DNA of 57,665 nucleotides from Verrucomicrobiota bacterium (lineage in GTDB: Bacteria; Verrucomicrobiota; Verrucomicrobiia; Limisphaerales; J093), in NCBI GenBank assembly GCA_022710935.1, contig JAKLFY010000043.1:1-57665 (forward strand), in the 5' to 3' direction. A program made the position numbers and the translations under genes. Shown in pieces: positions 1-45,753 of the stretch (position 1 is the stretch's first letter; the number at the start of each line of letters is the position of its first letter). The notes beneath the pieces were generated by a model. It was given only the letters and a program-made list of their open reading frames with translations. It had not been told where the DNA came from and made no database searches.

Positions 1-242
<242 letters not shown>

Positions 243-382
243 TACGGGGTGCCGGGTTAACCGGCGCTCAAGGTCGAACGGCCGCGCTAGCGGCCGACCG
301 GCTGATCTCATCGCACAATTCAATCGTCATCGAGCGCGCTCTTTGATCAATGGAGCCGCCGGGATGGACTCCCCTCAGCGCC

Positions 383-458
383 GGGGCTGTAGCTCAGTTG
401 GTAGAGCGGTAGCTTTGCAAGCTATAGGTCGGGAGTTCGAGTCTCCTCAGCTCCACCA
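383..458 (+). tRNA. tRNA-Ala (anticodon TGC)
   Basis: A 76-base cloverleaf with an encoded CCA end. The acceptor stem 383-389 (GGGGCTG) pairs with 448-454 (CAGCTCC) through one G-U pair. The anticodon stem 409-413 pairs with 421-425 around loop TTTGCAA, putting anticodon TGC at 416-418. The T-loop reads GTTCGAG. It sits in the 16S-23S spacer, where tRNA-Ala and tRNA-Ile are the usual pair. Here Ala precedes Ile, the reverse of the common Ile-Ala order. Confidence 0.98.
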
Positions 459-503
459 GCGCCCGCGGGCGCGGGCGGGATGGATGCGGACGGACTGGGG
501 CTT

Positions 504-580
504 GGGCGTGTAGCTCAGTTGGTTAGAGCATGCGCTTGATAAGCGCAGGGTCACTGGTTCGAGTCCAGTCACGCCCACCA
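504..580 (+). tRNA. tRNA-Ile (anticodon GAT)
   Basis: A 77-base cloverleaf with encoded CCA. The acceptor stem 504-510 (GGGCGTG) pairs with 570-576 (CACGCCC). The anticodon GAT is at 538-540 within a TTGATAA loop, and the T-loop reads GTTCGAG. It is the second spacer tRNA and is processed from the same rRNA precursor. Confidence 0.98.
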
Positions 581-710
581 ACACACTTTTCGCCTGCTAG
601 GGAGCAGGTGTTGATCTTTGAAAACCACATATAGGCATGCTGTAATTGAGGCAATTGTAGTTCGCTGAGTCGGGTTTCGGCGGCGCAAGCCGACGGAACT
701 CTAATTTTGC

Positions 711-3619
<2,909 letters not shown>

Positions 3620-3752
3620 CTTAATCCTCCATGAGGATTGAGCAGATTTAACCGACGCGCGAATAGCAATTGCCTTTCGGCATCCTGTATGTGGTTTTCA
3701 GAGATCAGCCCTGTGGCCTGATTGGGCTGGTGAATGCGATCTTTCTGATTTT

Positions 3753-3867
3753 TTTGGTGACCATAAAACGGTGGTCCGACCCGATCCCATCCCGAACTCG
3801 GCCGTCAAACACCGCTTTGCCGATGGTAGTGCTTGTATAGCTTGCGCGAGAGTAGGTTGTCGCCAGA
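3753..3867 (+). rRNA. 5S ribosomal RNA
   Basis: The 5S gene follows 23S after about 130 bases. Its ends come from helix I: 3753-3759 (TTTGGTG) pairs with 3861-3867 (CGCCAGA) with G-U pairs, giving about 115 bases. The internal CCGATCCCATCCCGAACTCGG box is diagnostic. The gene ends only 16 bases before the stop codon of the convergent adaptor gene, and no U-tract terminator is visible between them. Confidence 0.95.
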
Positions 3868-3883
3868 TCTTCCCCCCCACCGG

Positions 3884-5128
3884 TCAGTACGTCATCGGCC
3901 TGACCCGATTGCCCCCTCGGACCCGATCCCCGGGATACACGATCACCCGATCGCCCTCCTGTAGCCCCCCGCGAATCTCAGTCTCGATTCCGTTCGACCG
4001 CCCCACTTCGAGTCTTCTCTCCTGAGCGCGCCCGTTCTCGATCACGAACGCGGCCCAGGTCTCCTCCTGCTTGCGGAAAAGAGCGCCTGACGGGACTTTC
4101 AGCGCGCGATTGGTTTCCCAGACAATAATCCGGGCCTCGACGTGAAAATTGTCGCCGAGATGCCCTCGAAGGGCCGGAGGCGTGATGAGATCGGCGATCA
4201 CATTGACCCGCTGTTCCTCGACGCCCAGGGCGGAGACCTTGGTAAACGCCGCAGGTTCCACCAGACGCAGCCGCGCTTCGAGGATCTCCGGACCGCCCCA
4301 GTGTTCGAGTTCAATCCGAGTGCCGGAATCGAGAATCGCCCCGTCGCGCGAGAGCACGTCAATCACCACTTCGAGATCGCTCGGATCCCCAATCTCGAGA
4401 ATCGGTGTTCCCGTCGACACAGCCCGGCTGTTCTCTTCGAACACCCGCAGCACGCGGCCTGTGGCCGGCGCCAGAACGGTCAGGGGCGAATTGGTCCCCT
4501 GATCGGATCCCGATGCCGCCGTGCCGAAGACCGCCAATTCGGCCTCGGCCACGCGCAGGGCGCTCTCCGCCGCGGATTCCTCCCGGCTCGCGGAGGCTTG
4601 GCGCCACTGGGCGGATTCGAGTTCCTGGGGTGAGATGGCGTGTTCGCGTGCCAGGGCTTCGAAGCGACGCAATTCGCTCGAGGCAAAGCTGTGGGCCTCG
4701 CGCGCTTTTTCGAGATTCGCAGCCGCCGTGTCACGCCGCGCTTCGGCCAGGGCGCGGCTGCGCGGGTCCAAGAGAGCAGCGGCAAGCGGGTCGATGACCG
4801 CGATTTCCGTAACTCCCCCTTCGACTGGCGCGCCCGCCTTCAGAGCCGTGCGCCGCAGGTGTCCGGCAACGGGCGCGGAGACCACATAGCGATGGCGAAT
4901 CCGGGTCTTTCCCTCTTCGTTCACGCTGACGCGCAGCGGTCCCCAGACGGCGGGCGCAGTCTCGACGCGGACTGGCTGAGGCCAAAGCGCGAAGACCAGC
5001 GTCCCGACGAGAAGCATACCGGCCAGATACGGCAGCCATTGGCGGGCGCGCTGGTTTCCGCGGTTGGCTCGGCTTCGGGTGGCCGATGCGGAGGCAGGAC
5101 GCGAATCGGTTGACTTGGGAGGTTCCAT
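3884..5128 (-). CDS. HlyD/RND-type membrane-fusion adaptor of an ABC exporter
   Basis: This is the periplasmic adaptor of an ABC-type efflux system, about 414 residues. A short cytoplasmic N-terminus precedes one membrane segment (about residues 33-50, YLAGMLLVGTLVFALWP). A split biotinyl-lipoyl region follows (RYVVSAPVAGHL, later APATGRVLRV), with a long alpha-helical hairpin rich in A/E/R between the halves. The end is a beta-barrel and membrane-proximal domain. I chose the ATG at 5128, 7 bases after the permease stop, because it gives a normal N-terminus. A longer frame to 5227 would only run back into the permease gene. It is the third gene of the ATPase-permease-adaptor operon. Substrate is unknown. 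The DevB/MacA families are the closest known relatives. Confidence 0.88.
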   Translation of the reverse strand: MEPPKSTDSRPASASATRSRANRGNQRARQWLPYLAGMLLVGTLVFALWPQPVRVETAPAVWGPLRVSVNEEGKTRIRHRYVVSAPVAGHLRRTALKAGAPVEGGVTEIAVIDPLAAALLDPRSRALAEARRDTAAANLEKAREAHSFASSELRRFEALAREHAISPQELESAQWRQASASREESAAESALRVAEAELAVFGTAASGSDQGTNSPLTVLAPATGRVLRVFEENSRAVSTGTPILEIGDPSDLEVVIDVLSRDGAILDSGTRIELEHWGGPEILEARLRLVEPAAFTKVSALGVEEQRVNVIADLITPPALRGHLGDNFHVEARIIVWETNRALKVPSGALFRKQEETWAAFVIENGRAQERRLEVGRSNGIETEIRGGLQEGDRVIVYPGDRVRGGNRVRPMTY

Positions 5129-15518: not shown

Positions 15519-18500
15519 ATGCAACCGATCTCCACCCATGCGCTCGCGCTCGTGCTGGCTCTTTGGTCCGTCGGTCCGTCGGGGGCCGCGGGAGCTGAAC
15601 CGCTGTTGCCAACCGCCGAGACGCCCGCCCAGCGCGAGGCGCGTCTGTCCTGGTGGCGCGAGGGACGGTTCGGGCTCTTCATTCACTGGGGACCGTCGAG
15701 CCTCAGCGGCAAGGAGATCAGTTGGGCCCGCGTCGGGCACCCGCACGATCATCGCGGCCTCGAATCCGTCCCCGCCGACGAGTACGACGTCCTCTATAGG
15801 CGATTCGATCCGGTGCGATTCGATGCCGACGCCTGGATGCGGTTGGCGAAGGAAGCGGGCTGCAAGTACGTCGTTTTCATCGCCAAACACCACGACGGCT
15901 TCTCGATGTGGCCCACGAAGCTGCGTGCGGACTACAGCATTGCGGCGACGCCATTCCGGCGTGACATCTGCAAAGAGATTGCCGACGCCGCTCATCGGCA
16001 CGGTTTGAAGCTGGGGTGGTATTACTCGACGCGCGACTGGACGCATCCGGACTACCTGGTGGGTGACAACCGCGCCTACGACACGTTTCAGATGGGTCAG
16101 GTGCGCGAGTTGCTCACGGACTATGGGCGCGTGGATCTGATGTGGTTCGATCATGTGGCCGGCAATTGGCGCGACTACCGGTTCCAGGAGCTTTTCGAGA
16201 TGCTGTACCGGTTGCAGCCGGGTCTCCTGGTCAACAACCGCGCCGCCGCATTCATTCGCCCCACCGAGGACCAGCCCAGCCCGGAGTTGCGGCAACTGGT
16301 TCGCGGCGACTTCGACACGCCCGAACAGCGGATTGGGGCCTTTCAGAACGATCGCCCCTGGGAATCCTGCGTGACCATCACCGAGTGCGCCGATGGCGGC
16401 GGCTGGTCCTATCGTCCGGACGGCCGCACCCGCGGCTTTGCCGAGTGCCTGCGGATGCTGGTGAACTGTGCGGCGGGGGACGGCAATCTGTTGCTGAACG
16501 TCGGTCCGCTCCCAACGGGTGAGATCGCGGCGGACCAGCAGGGTGTCTTGCGGCAAATAGGCCAATGGCTGGTGCGCTACGGCGAGAGCGTTTACGGGAC
16601 GCGGGGCGGACCGTTCCGCAACGGCGCTTGGGGCGGCGCGACGTATCGCGGCCAGACGGTTTATCTGCACGTATTCCGGTGGGCCGGCGACCGGCTGCGA
16701 TTGCCTCCGCTTCGGGCCAAGGTGTTGCGCGTCGCAGCGCTGACCGGCGGTTCACCCGCGGTGGACCAGTCGTCGGCTGGAGTGACCGTGGTGCTGCCGA
16801 CGCATCAGCAAGACGCGACGAACACGGTCGTCACGCTCGAACTCGATGGCCCGGCGTCCGCCGAGTTCCGGGACGGCAAACCGCTCGAGGTGCCTGAACA
16901 GGTCACGATCGAAGTCGATTCCCCGCGTGATTACCAGGTGTTCCAAAGGCAATCGGCCGCCCGGGGGCTGGTTCGCATGGTGGGCAAAGTCGGCGGAAAT
17001 GTCGAGCGAGTCGAGGTTCAACTCGATGGCGACTGGCAGGAACTCGCCTTTGACTCCAAGACGGGGACGTTCAAAACCGAGTTCAGCGCGCCAACAGGCG
17101 GCTGGTACGTTTGCCGTGTCCGGGCTCGGGCTGCGGGCGCGATCGTGGCCTCGATGGAGATTCCTCATGTCGGTGTGGGCGAGGTATTCGTGGTGTCGGG
17201 GCAATCCAATTCGGCCAATCACGGCGAGGAGCGGCAGTCTCTGCAGAGCGACCGTGTGACGGCCTTTGACGGGACGGTTTGGCGGCCGGCTCACGATCCG
17301 CAGCCCGGCGCCAGCGGGGACGGGGGGAGTTTCATACCGCCGTTTGGCGAGGCGATGGCGGCCCGGTTCAACGTGCCGGTGGGTGTCGTTTCCTGCGGGA
17401 TCGGTGCGACAAGCGTCCGAGAGTGGTTGCCGAGAGGGGTCACCTTTCGGCATCCGCCGACTTTGGTGGGGCGTGTGCGCCAATTGCCCAACGGCGATTG
17501 GGAGAGCCAGGGCGCCGCGTTCGAGATGATGATGGCCCGCATGAGGGCACTTGGGCCGCACGGTTTTCGGGCCGTGCTGTGGCATCAGGGCGAGTCCGAT
17601 GCCAACCAACCCGATCCAGCGCGCGCCCTGCCGCGTGACTTGTATCGGAGTTGCCTCGAGCAACTGATCCGGGATTCCCGGAGCGCGATCGGGTGGGAGG
17701 CGCCCTGGTTCGTTGCCCAAGTCAGTTATCATGGTCCAGGCGACGAGTTCTCGCCCGAGATTCGGGCGGCCCAGAAGTCACTCTGGGATGATGGGATTGC
17801 GCTGGAAGGACCGGACACCGACGCGCTGAAGGGCAGCCTGCGCGACAGCGGGGGGCGGGGGGTGCATTTCAGCGGAACGGGTCTGCGGGAGCACGCGGCG
17901 CGCTGGGTCGAGAAGGTCGCGCCGTGGCTTGCGACCCGGCTGGGGACTCGAGGTCTCGCGGAGGCGTCCGCCGAGATCGGCCCCTGGACTGAGACATGGG
18001 CGCGGGGCCCCGGCTATCCCGATCGCGATGCGAGCCTGGACGCGCTGCCGGGTTTTCGGGACCCGCCGCCGGGATATGGCGAGGTGCCGTTTTGGTGGTG
18101 GACGGGCGATCCGCTGGATGTGGACCGATTGACCTGGCATCTCGATCAACTGCATGAGAAAGGGATCAGCGGCGTGCAGGTCAATTATGCGCACGAGGAT
18201 ACGCCGGGCTGGCCGACGTACGCTGCGGAGCCGCCGATCTTCAGCGACGCCTGGTGGCGCGTTTGGGGGCAGGTGGCCGAGGCCTGCCGTCAACGCGGCA
18301 TGGGCATCGGGCTGAGCACCTACACGCTCGATTGGCCCAGCGCGGACAACCTGTTTCGCCGCCTCTTCTACTCGAGACCCGAGCTGAATGCGCTGAAGTT
18401 GGAGCCGCTCCCACGGCAGCGCTTCACAAGCGGTCAAGCGGTCCAAGTTGCGGTGCCGTCCGATCTGGTCGCGGCGCGCGCCTATCCGGTCAAGGATGGC

Positions 18501-21500
18501 CAGGTCCAGCGTGGCGGGGTGGATTTGAGGGCGCGCATCCGCGACGGGCGCCTCGAGTGGACGGCGGACGAAGGCGAATGGGAGCTGTGGCTGGTCCGGG
18601 CCGAGCGGCAAGCCAACACCCTCAATCCGCTCTTGACGGGCATCGGGGACACGATCATCCGGGACTTCTACCAGCGGTTCCAGGAGGCCACGCCCAACCG
18701 GTCGGCGGAAGGACTCAACTACTTTTTCAACGACGAGTTGCACATCGGCGCCGGGGCGCGGGTCTGGACCATCGACTTCGCGGACGAGTTTCAGCGGCGC
18801 AAGGGGTACAGCCTGTTCGAGGTGTTGCCGGCTCTTTGGGCCGATCTCGGACCGGTGACCCCCAAAGTCCGGATCGATTACGCCGACGTGCGGATGGCTC
18901 TGATGGAGGAACGCTATTTCCAGCCGATCTTTCAATGGCACGCATCGCGCGGACTGATCTTCGCCTGTGATTCCGGCGGACGCGGGCTGCAACCGGACGA
19001 GTTCGGTGATTACTTCCGCGCGACGCGCTGGTATAGCGCTCCAGGCCATGACACGCCCGGCGGGCACGCAGACCTCATCAAGGGCAAGGTCTCATCCTCG
19101 ATCGCGAGTCTGTACCGGCGACCGCGCGTGTGGCTCGAGGGCTATCACAGCCTCGGGTGGGGGGCGACGCCCGAGCGCCTGATGTTCGCCACGCGCGAGA
19201 ACTATCTCTATGGTTGCACACTGCTGAATCTCCACGGTCTGTACTACACCACGCATGGCTCGTTTTGGGAATGGGCGCCGCCGTGTCACCACTTCCGGAT
19301 GCCCTACTGGGAGCACATGGGGGTCTTCCTCAAATACTTCGAGCGGCTTTCGTACCTGCTGAGCCAGGGCACGTTCGTCGCCGACGTCGCAGTGCTCTAC
19401 CCGGTCGCGCCATTCGAGGCCGGACTGGATGGCGGAAAGGCGACTCAGATCGCTTTCGACACAGGCCGCGCGTTGATGGCTGCTGGCGTCAACTTCGAGT
19501 TCCTGGATGCCGACTCGTTGGCGCGGGCCACGGTTGGCGGCGCGCGGCTCGCGACCGCGGATTCCTCGTATCGCGCACTGGTCTTCCCCGCCATGGAAGC
19601 GGTGCGCTGGTCGTCGCTGCAAAAGGCTGCTGCATTCGCCCAGTCCGGCGGCCTGGTCGTGAGCGTTGGTGCGCTTCCGCTTGCCAGCGACCGCGCCGGC
19701 CGGGAGGACCCGGACCTGGACGCCCTCGTGGCAGCGGCTTTCCCGAAGGAAAGGCGTCTCGAAAAGCCGGGCGACGTGCCGGCGAGAGTCCTTGACGCCT
19801 TCGTTCCCGATACACGCGCGGATTCACCCGTCCGCTCGCTTCATCGCAAGGTCGGTTCGCGCGAGGTGTACCTGGTGATGGACGCGCCGAAACACGCGGT
19901 CGTCGAGTTTCGCGCCCGGGGACAGGCCGAGTGGTGGGATCCGTGGACCGGTGCGACCCACCCGTTGCGCGTTCTGGGCGAGACGGCTACGGGCGCGCGG
20001 ATCGAAATGCCGCTCGAAGCCTATGAAGCCCAGGTCATCGTCTTCAGGCCGGGCTTCGCGCACACGAATCCACCCCCTCGCATGGAGCGCACCGTGCAGC
20101 GGCGGGCGCTTGACGGCGACTGGGAGTTCGCGCTCAAGCCGACGATGGACAATCGTTACGGGGATTTCCGCCTGCCGGCCACCGACCGGATCATCGGGCC
20201 CGAAGCGCGCGTTTTCCGCCACGCCATCGAGAGCAGTCCGGCGTCCGCCTGGCACGAACCGGGATTTGATGACCGCGGCTGGCAACGGGTCACGCATGAC
20301 TTCGGCCCGCAATTCTGGGTGTTGGGACCGATTCCGCCTGCCACGGATTTTCAGGCTCTCGACCAGGCCTTGGGGCAGACTGCGCGCCTCGATCCGTCCG
20401 AGTTGCCGATCCCCGGGGGTGAGAGCCTCCGGTGGCGTCCGTATGAGATCTCCTGGCGCCAGGGACTCGGGGGGGATCCCGGCCACCAGGGCTGGCACGG
20501 GCTCAAAGAGAATGTCACCGACCACTTCCTCTGTCTGGGGAAACGCGGCGAGGCTTTCAACGAGTCCAAGTATGAACCGGAGATCGAGGGAGGCCGGTAC
20601 TACCTCTGGACCTGCGTGACGGTGGACCAACCCACCCGCGCCCGCCTTGTGGCGAGCGTGCCTCGAGAAGGCGTCAAGCCTCACGCCTCCGCAGTCCTTA
20701 CTCCGGCGGCCATCTACGTGAACGGACAGCGACTGGATGACTGGCAGCAACCGCTTTCCCTGCGGACCGGCCCCAATCCGATCCTCATCCGCTATGACCA
20801 CGCTGGGCGTGGCTACCTGGTGGTGAAACGCGATGGAGGGGGCGCGGCGCCCGCTGCGCGCACCCCGTTGTCCATGACCTGGTTCGACGATCCGGCCCTG
20901 ATGCGATTCGACATTCATGCGGGGGCCGCGCCGGCCGAGTGGTTCCGCTTTGTCGCCCCGCCCGGATTGCGCGCGATCAAGGTCGTCGCCCATGGCAAGC
21001 TCGACGTCTGGGCCGATGGCGAGCCGATGCGCGCCTCAGGCACTGGACGCTTCGAGGTGTCCGAGGCCCTGGCGCGCGCCGCCGTGGTCGCGCTGCGCGT
21101 CCGGTCGGAGCGCGGATTCACTGGCGCCGCAGTCTTTCCCGAGCCGGTGCGATTGGAATGTGGGCCGGGGGTGTTGGCACTGGGCGACTGGTCCAAGAGC
21201 GGCGCGCTCGAGTGTTACTCGGGAGGCGCCATCTACGCCACAACGCTGGCGCTCGGTCCTGAAGAGGCCAAAGGCGAGGTCACGCTGGACCTTGGGAAAG
21301 TGGTCGCCACGGCCGAGGTGCGCGTGAACGGGCAACTGGCCGGCATTCGGGTGGCGCCGCCTTGGCGCGTGGAAATCACCCCGCACGTCAAACCGGGCGA
21401 GAACCGGATCGAGGTGCTGGTGTTCAACACGCTCGCCAACCATTATTCCACGATCCCGACCCGCTACCGCGGGGAACTGACGTCCGGGTTGGTGGGACCC

Positions 21501-21524
21501 GTTGCAATCGAGGTGGCGTTGTAG
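15519..21524 (+). CDS. Trimodular fucosidase (GH29) - SGNH acetylesterase - rhamnosidase-like (GH106) enzyme
   Basis: One uninterrupted 2001-residue secreted protein with signal peptide [18 protein letters not shown]. Module 1 (about 30-460) is GH29: [19 protein letters not shown] (123-131), and LMWFDH with the expected nucleophile Asp211. Module 2 (about 465-810) is a sialate-O-acetylesterase-like SGNH hydrolase: a beta domain, VFVVSGQSN with Ser560 (556-564), [10 protein letters not shown] (687-696), and His783 in GVHFSGTG. The usual Asp of the D-x-x-H box is replaced by Arg in RGVH. Module 3 (about 840-2001) resembles GH106: [12 protein letters not shown] (856-867), FNDELHIG with Glu1073, [11 protein letters not shown] with Glu1207, then beta-sandwich domains. 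It would remove fucose, acetyl and rhamnose decorations. The frame is clean and all three sites are largely intact, so it looks functional. Confidence 0.85.
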
Positions 21525-22375: not shown

Positions 22376-23574
22376 TCAAGGACGCTCGACAGGAGTTATC
22401 AGCTCTGAATCGCTCATCCGCTGGCGCCAGTCGGCCAGCGAGGATTCGACAAAGTAGACGCGGTTGAGGCCCTCGCCGGTCTCGCCGGGATTCAGGGGGC
22501 CGAAACCGCTGGCGCTGTGGATACAGCCGTATTCCATGTTCTGGAACAGGAACAGGGCCGGACGGGAAACGGTGGCGACCAGCCGGCGGCCATCGCGCGA
22601 CGTCACCGCGATCCAGCCGCCCAACACCAGGTCGGGCGTGGCACGGAAGTTCGCGACGAAGGGGATGGCGGCGGCTTTTGGGGCGCCTGCGACGCTGTAG
22701 AGCTGGATCGTGGGGCGGGGACCGAATACGCGAGGGAGTTCGATCAATCGCCGGAGTTCGCCCGCGTGCTCGACCCAGGTGCGTCCGCACTCGTGGTCGC
22801 GGACCTCGGGCATCGAGCCGCATTGGACGCAGTTGAAGGCGAGGCTCTGCGCCCAGCGGCGGTCGCTTTCGTTGGTGAGCCGGTAGCGGGTTTCGATGAA
22901 GTTGAGGTGCGGCGTCACAGTCATTTCATAGCGCGATTCGCCGGGACGCGATCCGCGGGAAACCCATGCGCCGTCGGGGCCGCGTTCCCACGCCGGTTTG
23001 AGCCCGCCATGCAGGTGATGAGGAACCGAGGACGGGGTTTCGACCGGGTCACCGCCAGAGTCGAAGTGGCAGGCTTGCGGATCGAAGCGGTCGCCCCACG
23101 GGTAGCGGAGGCCGTTTTCGCCGCGGGCCGCTTTCTCCCATTCCGCCTCGGTGGGGAGTCGTTTACCTGCCCACCGGGCGAAGGCGGTGGCGTCTGCGTG
23201 GTCGACCATGGTCACGGGATGATCGAGCAGGCGTTCGGGAGGGCGGTGGGCGCCCCAGTTGAGGGGGGGTGGTGGCCGGTGGCGGCCACGAACCGGGCGT
23301 AGGCGGCATTGGTGACGGGGAAGCGGTCGATCTGAAAGGCGGGCAGGTCGACCCTGCGCTGTGGCATTTCACCGGCCAGCCAGCTCGGATGGTGGCTGTG
23401 CTCGCGGGCGAGGGCAGAGGCTTCCGCTTCGGTGGTACCCATGACGAACAGACCGCCGGGGATGCGGATCATCCCCGTTGGCACGGTTTCGGAAGATGCG
23501 CCGGGCAGGACGACCAGCGCCCCGGAACCGGCGAAGGCAGCCTTGAGCCAGCGACGGCGGGAACAGGTGTGCAT
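22376..23574 (-). pseudogene. FGE/SUMF1-like protein, frameshifted and joined to an unrelated C-terminal half
   Basis: The first frame (from ATG 23574) has a Tat-like signal (SRRRWLKAAFAGSGALVVLP), then the start of a formylglycine-generating-enzyme domain: [36 protein letters not shown]. It runs into a 7-base G run (23263-23269 on the plus strand) and goes out of frame. The next frame resumes the family sequence ([20 protein letters not shown], then [15 protein letters not shown] and [19 protein letters not shown]). One extra base in the run would restore a single frame. The domain then stops before the NVWEW and GGSW core and continues as an unrelated segment ([40 protein letters not shown]). 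So there is a frameshift plus a fusion that removed the catalytic part. It should not mature sulfatases even if the frame were restored. Confidence 0.8.
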
Positions 23575-23712
23575 GCGGTCGGAGTCTGCGCGGTCGGTCG
23601 TTCTTTGCCAACTCAATTGGCATGCCGGACCGGACCGGCGTCCGGACTTCAAGTCTTCGAGTGCTTGTTCTCGGTAGTTTCGTGAACAGCCACTCGATGT
23701 GGCGCCAGAGCC

Positions 23713-43627: not shown

Positions 43628-43771
43628 TCAGATTCCGAGCCGTTGGGCGAGGGCTTCCCGGACCCGTTTCAACTCGTCGGCGGGGTATTCGGTGAGGATG
43701 GGCGCGGGGCGAACCTTCGCCGCTAGCCCGAACTCCGTCATCCAGACTTCACCGGGATGGACGGCGGGCAT
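43628..43771 (-). pseudogene. MazF/PemK-like toxin remnant with internal deletion
   Basis: A 47-codon frame from ATG 43771, preceded by a good Shine-Dalgarno (GGAGG, 6 bases upstream). The N-terminus HPGEVWMTEFGLAAKVRPAP is the start of MazF-type mRNA interferases (PGE.W...LG.A.K.RP). The C-terminus LTEYPADELKRVREALAQRL looks like the last helix of the same family. MazF proteins are usually about 100-115 residues, so the middle, including most of the barrel, is missing. It lies antisense to the flanking relics on the plus strand. Confidence 0.6.
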
Positions 43772-43805
43772 CTTCGTCCTCCAGGCGATCGAGCATCGCC
43801 CGCGA
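43749..43805 (-). pseudogene. C-terminal tail of a possible antitoxin gene
   Basis: Overlapping the start of the MazF-like remnant in another frame, codons read SRAMLDRLEDEDARRPSR followed by TGA at 43751-43749. An antitoxin ending inside the toxin start is the usual toxin-antitoxin layout. The upstream part is gone: the plus-strand alpha-galactosidase relic takes over at about 43800. The identity is inferred from position only. Confidence 0.35.
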
Positions 43806-44461
43806 GCATCCGCGGTGGGTCATCTCACCCGCCGGCGACGGCAGCGGCCTGTTTGACCTTGGCAATCCCGCGGCGCGAGACTACATGACAGAGTACCTCG
43901 ACGCCGCTGTGGCGCAGCAACAACACCTGCGACATGGTGGGCGAGAACGTGGACACCATCATCAACGCCGCGGTGAAGAACCAGCTCATGAGCGCCGGGC
44001 TGAATCGCTATCTGCCCTTCAACACCGTCGGCCAGATGGGCGCGTCGCCGTACTTCTTCCGCAGCGGCTTCAACGGCGGCATTGACTTCTGCCAGGACAT
44101 GCGCCGCGACAGCTTCCCGCGCGAGCTTCTCCGCAAGGGCATCGAAGAAGGCAAGCGCATCCGGCCCTACTGGCTGGGCGACTTCTACCCGGTGTCCGAG
44201 GTCAACACGAACCCACGTGACTGGTGCGTGAGCCAGTTCCACCGGCCCGAGACCGGCGACGGCATCGTGCTCGGCTTCCGCCGCCACCGGTCGCCGTACA
44301 GCGGCTATCAGTGCGACCTGCGGAGCATTGACGAGGCGGCGCAGTACGAGGTCAGCATCTCTCACCGCTACGACCCCGAGCCTCCGGTGCGCATGAGCGG
44401 GACCGAGCTGAAGCGTTTGAACCTGATCGTGAAGGACTGCCCCGGGTCCGTGCAGGTCGAG
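43795..44461 (+). pseudogene. Alpha-galactosidase-like (GH36-type) gene relic with internal deletion
   Basis: Two pieces of one family member lie in different frames. Piece 1 (about 43801-43910) reads AREHPRWVISPAGDGSGLFD, then NPAARDYMTEYLDAAV. Piece 2 (about 43904-44461) reads PLWRSNNTCDMVGENVDT, then INAAVKNQLMSAGLNRYLPF, FRSGFNGGIDFC, GDFYPVSEVN and VLGFRRHRSPYSGYQC. In GH36-type proteins these are separated by roughly 60-80 residues holding a catalytic Asp, and preceded by several hundred residues. Both ends are missing. CCGCTGTG at 43904-43911 is read as part of DAAV on one side and PLW on the other. It runs in frame at 44461 straight into the kinase relic. Confidence 0.72.
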
Positions 44462-45753
44462 ATGACCGGCCTGGATATCGACACCCGCAGTGACATCTAT
44501 AGCCTGGGCGTGCTGCTCTACGAGCTCCTGACGGGCGACACGCCGTTCGACGCCAAAGACCTCCTGCAACGGGGCTTGGACGAGATGCGTCGAACGGTCC
44601 GGAAAGTGGAACCGCCGCGTCCAAGCGCCCGTTTCGAGACCCTTCCGCCGGCCCGACGCACCACGGTGGCGGCAGCGCGGCGCATGGACGCTCTGAAACT
44701 TCGGTCCGAGCTGCGCGGCGACCTGGATTGGATCGTGATGAAGTGCCTCGAGAAGGACCGCACGCGCCGCTTCGAAACCGCCCACGCGCTGGCTCTGGAC
44801 CTGACGCGGTTCCTGCGCCACGAGCCGGTCACCGCCCGACCGCCCACCGCACTTTATCGTCTGCGGAAGTTGGCACGAAGAAACCAGGTTTCGTTTGCCG
44901 CGGGGGTGATCGCCCTTCTATCGCTGGTCGTCGGTTTGGGGATCAGCACCTGGGCTTTGGTGAGAGAGCGGGTGGCGCGCAAAGAGGCCGAACGACTACG
45001 CGCTGAAGAACGAATCCAACGCGTTCGAGCCGAGGCGGGCGAATCGGGCGCCCGGCAATTCGCCTACGCCTCGGACATGAATCTCGTGCAACAGGCCCTG
45101 GGTGCGAACAACCTCGGACGCGCGCGCGAGTTTCTTCAACGCAATCACCCGCCGCCCGGTCAGGTCGATCTACGGCGCTGGCAGTGGCGACACCTCTGGC
45201 AGTGCTCGCGCAGCTCTGCGCAATTCACTCTATGCGAGCAGCCGATGTCGGTTCTGATCGTTGCCTATGCGCAAGCCGAGACTCGCGTGGCGACGCGTGA
45301 CAGTTCGGGCGCGGTCAAGTTGTGGGACCTCCTCACCCGGCGTCCAGTGCTTGAAGCGCGCAGCTTCGGCCATGGCCGAGCGCTCGCGGTGTCCGCCGAC
45401 GGTCGCACCTTGGCCTGGGACAACCGCGATTCCCAGCACCAGCCGGGCACCGCCGCCGGGTCACGGGCGTGGCGTTCACGCCCGACGGAGGGACCTTGGC
45501 CACGGCGAGCGAAGATGCCCTGGTGAAACTCTGGGACCCTGCAACGCTGCGGGAAGTGGCGACGCTTCGCGGTCATCTCCTGGGTGTCCATTCGGTACAA
45601 GTCTCTCCGGACGGCCGGCGCCTGGCCTCGGGCAGCCACGCGAAAGAGGCGGTGAAGCTCTGGGATTTGGCGACGTGGCAGGAAGTCACCACTTTGGAGG
45701 GACGTGGATCGTTCTTCTACCGCACGATGTTCTCGCCCGACAACGATTCATGA
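44462..45753 (+). pseudogene. Ser/Thr protein kinase - WD40 gene relic
   Basis: This begins abruptly mid-kinase with MTGLDIDTRSDIYSLGVLLY, that is subdomain IX onward. It continues through DLDWIVMKCLEKDRTRRFET, a transmembrane helix (FAAGVIALLSLVVGLGISTW), a coiled coil of K/E/R-A repeats, and the WD40 start (VKLWDLLTRRPVLEA). The ATP-binding lobe and catalytic HRD/DFG loops are absent. Near 45425-45455 the frame changes. The next frame carries VAFTPDGGTLATASEDALVK, then VKLWDPATLREVATLRGH, ending prematurely at FSPDNDS (stop at 45753). Intact relatives carry up to a dozen WD40 units. It cannot be an active kinase. The continuous 43934-45526 frame, partly alpha-galactosidase-like and partly kinase, is an accident of two deletions. 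Confidence 0.78.

Follow-up and report, generated by a model that had tools for sequence, protein, structure and literature searches.

How the window, that is, the whole stretch of 57,665 nucleotides analyzed here, came to carry an alpha-galactosidase gene that changes reading frame at position 43904, and whether an eight-base repeat had a part in this, are the questions raised by the locus. The window is contig C198 in full, and belongs to a draft, metagenome-assembled genome of 7.52 Mb in 259 contigs (95.7% complete, 4.29% contamination). As the preliminary description had read it, the octamer CCGCTGTG at 43904-43911 (+) ends ...TEYLDAAV in frame 43822 and starts PLWRSNNTCDM in frame 43904. 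From this it was proposed that a segment of the gene had been deleted between two copies of the octamer. Within the same 2.1 kb a MazF-like gene, a Ser/Thr kinase gene and a WD40 tail are truncated together with the alpha-galactosidase gene. The pieces and junctions, in order, are:

43628-43771, minus strand: remnant of a gene that we take to be MazF/PemK-like, with its middle missing; the full gene is found in L041 and L118, and the window joins YPAD to ELKRV
43673-43681, minus strand: J1, within the MazF-like remnant, with perhaps 5-7 nt in common, judged by codons against L041, L042, L118, L167, L168, L169 and L182, few homologues in all
43792-43797, no strand given: J2, from the MazF-like flank to the alpha-galactosidase; by eye, about 3-4 nt are in common
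43795-43903, plus strand: left piece of the alpha-galactosidase (IAREHPRW...TEYLDAA), recognized by tblastn to homologues
43904-44461, plus strand: right piece of the alpha-galactosidase (PLWRSNNT...PGSVQVE), recognized by comparison with homologues
43904-43911, plus strand: J3, the octamer CCGCTGTG; a loss of about 239 bp, with most likely 0-5 nt in common
43919-43921, plus strand: AAC (Asn) at the acid/base position, which is Asp in 48/48 homologues
44458-44461, plus strand: J4, from the alpha-galactosidase (PGSVQVE) to the kinase, in frame; shared run probably 0-4 nt
44459-45443, plus strand: Ser/Thr kinase remnant, made up of the C-lobe and what lies downstream of it; the N-lobe through DFG is missing by comparison with relatives
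45444-45456, plus strand: J5, a frame change near 45447; roughly 1.3 kb missing by comparison with relatives
45448-45753, plus strand: WD40 tail (WD40, E 5e-17), which ends early at a stop at 45751-45753; J6 lies near 45745 (approximate)

Six large lesions (J1-J6) would thus be present, with J2, J5 and J6 placed by eye only, yet stops and small indels are absent from every piece. At J2, DNA homology on the MazF side runs to 43797 and alpha-galactosidase homology begins near 43795. The J4 estimate draws on two possible starts, of which CAG gave 131 accepted draws only and the other 68,411. The kinase remnant covers positions 174-258 of the 263 of the Pkinase profile (E 2.5e-7, slightly below the Pfam cut-off), and the MazF-like remnant matched no Pfam family at E<=0.1. 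The MazF-like gene also looks broken in L042 (G021:C13; two overlapping partial matches in different frames) and in G117:C402, where 48 residues only were matched. A metallo-beta-lactamase-like neighbour gene had no match at E<=1e-30 among 13 other genomes of the window's family.

Other parts of the contig were also looked at. Positions 1-3919 are non-coding by codon use and, by eye, resemble a tRNA and 23S rRNA. At 22900-23600 (-) lies a gene that by eye is formylglycine-generating enzyme-like; its frame changes near 23264 and near 22990 it passes into a seemingly different protein. A single ORF of 2001 aa (15519-21521, +) carries alpha-L-fucosidase, SASA esterase and GH106 domains in tandem, the last without the first 220 positions of its profile; this ORF may be either a natural fusion or the product of in-frame joins.

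The two pieces on either side of J3 belong to one gene family, GH36-like alpha-galactosidase. Homology of the left piece halts at AAV, and that of the right piece opens exactly at PLW. The two pieces have no Pfam match at E<=0.1, and the family name therefore rests on relatives: the intact relative L043, compared with solved GH36 structures, matched 2xn0 best (E 4e-25) and then 4fnq (1e-23). A scan of genome contigs with the right piece found 48 homologues, at 43-66% protein identity, in Latescibacterota, Planctomycetes, Armatimonadetes, Verrucomicrobia, Hydrogenedentes and others. Within the window's own order, 8 of 320 genomes (the source genome counted) have a family member at E<=1e-30; at E<=0.001, matches, mostly distant, were found in 34 of 146 genomes, a set that overlaps the 320.

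In 48/48 intact homologues the two boundaries lie 228-234 nt apart (76-78 residues), the commonest spacing being 231 nt. A contiguous internal segment that all of these genes have is thus absent from the window, and its size agrees with the roughly 60-80 residues given in the preliminary description. The loss here comes to 239 bp, set against the commonest spacing of 231 nt, and the frame therefore changes, as observed. Most of the N-terminal part of the gene is absent as well. The missing segment includes the LRIDYN nucleophile strand, and the region aligns at the KWD motif of solved structures, whose Asp is the nucleophile according to PMC8509150.

That a deletion lies inside the gene is therefore borne out by the 48 intact homologues, but the second half of the proposal, in which the eight bases stood at each end, is not. 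With the boundaries located in the homologues, the octamer was found at the left boundary in 0/48 homologues, at the right boundary in 3/48 (L142, L144 and L150) and at both in 0/48. Taken to the letter, the refuting observation named in the preliminary description, an intact homologue without CCGCTGTG at one boundary, has thus been made. On the right, the octamer is fully compatible with PLW, and counted from its right end all eight bases are matched in the three homologues just named. On the left, counted from the octamer's left, the longest match is 5/8 bases (2/48), with at least CCGC in 13/48. The left site usually encodes Ala-Ala-Ile, its last residue being Ile in 43/48, where the octamer needs Val, and Val in 5/48. 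Nor is the octamer rare, as three copies are observed in the window and 3.6 expected.

A left match to AAV is expected anyway, because G followed by CCG CTG TG(G), which encodes PLW, reads GCC GCT GTG (AAV) out of frame. The Ala-Ala-Val obtained in this way is close to the family's Ala-Ala-Ile. The DAAV reading is thus largely a by-product of the PLW codons in another frame.

The lost ends were then estimated from family residues and the genome's codon use, by asking which pairs of ends yield the observed junction. Three sets of homologues were used: all 48, the first 20 listed, and 21 picked for similarity on the left. Across the three, the posterior for the octamer at both lost ends was 0.0003-0.0033. 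Most of the estimates for the shared run at J3 fall at 0-2 nt; 4-5 nt forms a second peak. For comparison, random sites 239 bp apart in this genome have 4 nt or more in a row in common, within 12 bases, in 8.6% of cases, and 8 or more in 0.25% (4000 trials). A spacing of 239 bp is plausible for slippage, and by arithmetic the octamer would equal the four-base case, but only if each further base in common raised the deletion rate more than about 3-fold. Slippage or microhomology repair acting on two octamers therefore appears improbable, and an eight-base repeat at both lost ends is strongly disfavoured by the homologues and by these reconstructions; we speak of disfavour rather than proof because protein identity to the homologues is only 43-66%.

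Could the truncated gene still encode an active enzyme? In all 48 homologues the residue at the position of the Asn codon is an Asp, which aligns with D548 of AgaA (4fnr; number counted by hand from the alignment), and 548 is the acid/base residue given for the homologue galV in PMC8509150. With the LRIDYN strand inside the missing segment and the acid/base Asp changed to Asn, essential residues are lost; the window copy has neither the nucleophile Asp nor the acid/base Asp of a functional GH36 enzyme. In the right piece, 5/55 columns conserved at 95% are changed (homologue maximum 4), one of them being the Tyr lost at J4. The left piece, with 0/11 columns changed at 90% conservation (ungapped alignment, 40/48 homologues kept), is neutral, and so is the kinase piece, with 3/42 columns changed at 95% conservation and a homologue maximum of 5, when L048, the window's own sequence, is left out.

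It could also be argued that the joins created a new working chimeric gene, since J4 is in frame and a 530-aa ORF (43934-45526) runs open from the alpha-galactosidase C-terminus through the kinase to the WD40 start. However, the catalytic cores are gone, both the kinase N-lobe through DFG and the GH36 nucleophile strand and acid/base residue, and the fusion was found in no relative in the searches made. We regard a working chimera as very improbable.

The preliminary description had considered that the junction could equally come from an assembler joining two nodes that share a short word. An artefact of assembly or gap closing that fused fragments of an intact locus and dropped what lay between them would fit the occurrence of several joins in 2.1 kb between pieces that are open and free of stops or small indels, as well as the draft state of the genome, with its 259 contigs and 4.29% contamination. 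It would also fit the results of searching for J3 in other genomes. The junction region had matches in 9/146 genomes searched, the source genome included, and the other 8 gave no match across the junction; in G065 there are two separate matches with the spacing kept. No relative was found in a plasmid collection, and no other genome with the junction, and so no independent copy, was found among the 146 searched or the 48 homologues.

Several observations weaken the assembler alternative. Short-read assemblers use words of about 20 or more. By estimate, the shared run is 0-4 nt at J4 and probably 0-5 nt at J3, far below that size. The missing alpha-galactosidase parts are absent from the other contigs, as a search of the genome bin returned only paralogues at 36-41% identity. 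The change of the acid/base Asp to Asn is not expected if an artefact had struck a working gene. Lastly, the genome sample shows no surplus of frame switches: a detector that does not distinguish deletions from one-base errors found 18 without a nearby stop in 412 kb of the source genome (4.4 per 100 kb), 4 of them inside the window. The same measure, taken per 100 kb, gave 0, 2.5, 3.8, 7.3, 17.5 and 25 for six relatives; the contigs sampled, in the source genome as in the relatives, were non-random and mostly known from earlier matches. The detector is a loosened form of a stricter one that had reported 2 switches in the source genome's sample and passed over the junctions of the window itself; the loosening came after this was seen. 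The rate lies within the relatives' range, and by that measure the genome is not unusually broken. An artefact is thus fairly unlikely.

We favour real decay over assembly error because the runs shared at J3 and J4 are very short, the missing parts are not found elsewhere and the acid/base residue is Asn. Our preferred reading, to which we give a probability of about 0.68, is that J3 is a real deletion scar in a dead alpha-galactosidase gene that decayed by illegitimate recombination. Deletions would have cut into each of the GH36-like alpha-galactosidase, its MazF-like neighbour and the kinase-WD40 gene. The one at 43904-43911 would have taken out about 239 bp, with RecA-independent (illegitimate) recombination closing the gap, most likely on a shared run of 0-5 nt (for example CCGC) and not of eight. 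The succession of the pieces, the lost segment, the lack of the octamer at both ends in relatives and the changed acid/base residue are seen in the sequences themselves; that the junctions exist in the living genome, the order of the events and the mechanism of joining are what we infer from them. It also seems conceivable, if improbable, that a single complex event, driven by replication or repair, shortened several adjacent genes and left clean, open fragments whose joins share 0-5 nt; such an event would account for six junctions in 2.1 kb with every fragment free of stop codons.

Provided that the junctions are real, the locus is a small, well-resolved case of bacterial gene decay via very short homology; if they are not, it calls for caution on gene calls in metagenome assemblies. 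The octamer also shows that one codon string read in two frames, here PLW read as AAV, can convincingly mimic a direct repeat at a junction.

Compared with the solved GH36 alpha-galactosidases (2xn0, 4fnq and 4fnr), the family is alike in that the alignment of L043 follows the barrel and places RSDNT against SDNTD of AgaA, whereas the window copy has lost the nucleophile strand and most of its N-terminal part and carries Asn as acid/base residue. Short-homology deletions are a significant cause of bacterial genome variability according to PMC2884548. The deletions at this locus, apparently joined at short shared runs under the RecA threshold, resemble the short-homology-dependent illegitimate recombination of that account; unlike in that system, the shared run here is an estimate drawn from homologues, and an eight-base repeat is unsupported. 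Pseudogenes, in turn, are pervasive in prokaryotes, and many are linked to failed horizontal transfer, as stated by Liu et al. (2004; PMC522871). Like the pseudogenes described there, the copies in the window are truncated, disabled copies of known families; unlike them, the locus loses sequence only by large deletions, its pieces are without stops, and its lesions are presumed to exist in the living genome. Since short-homology deletions and prokaryotic pseudogenes are both described in this way, the finding is an ordinary one.
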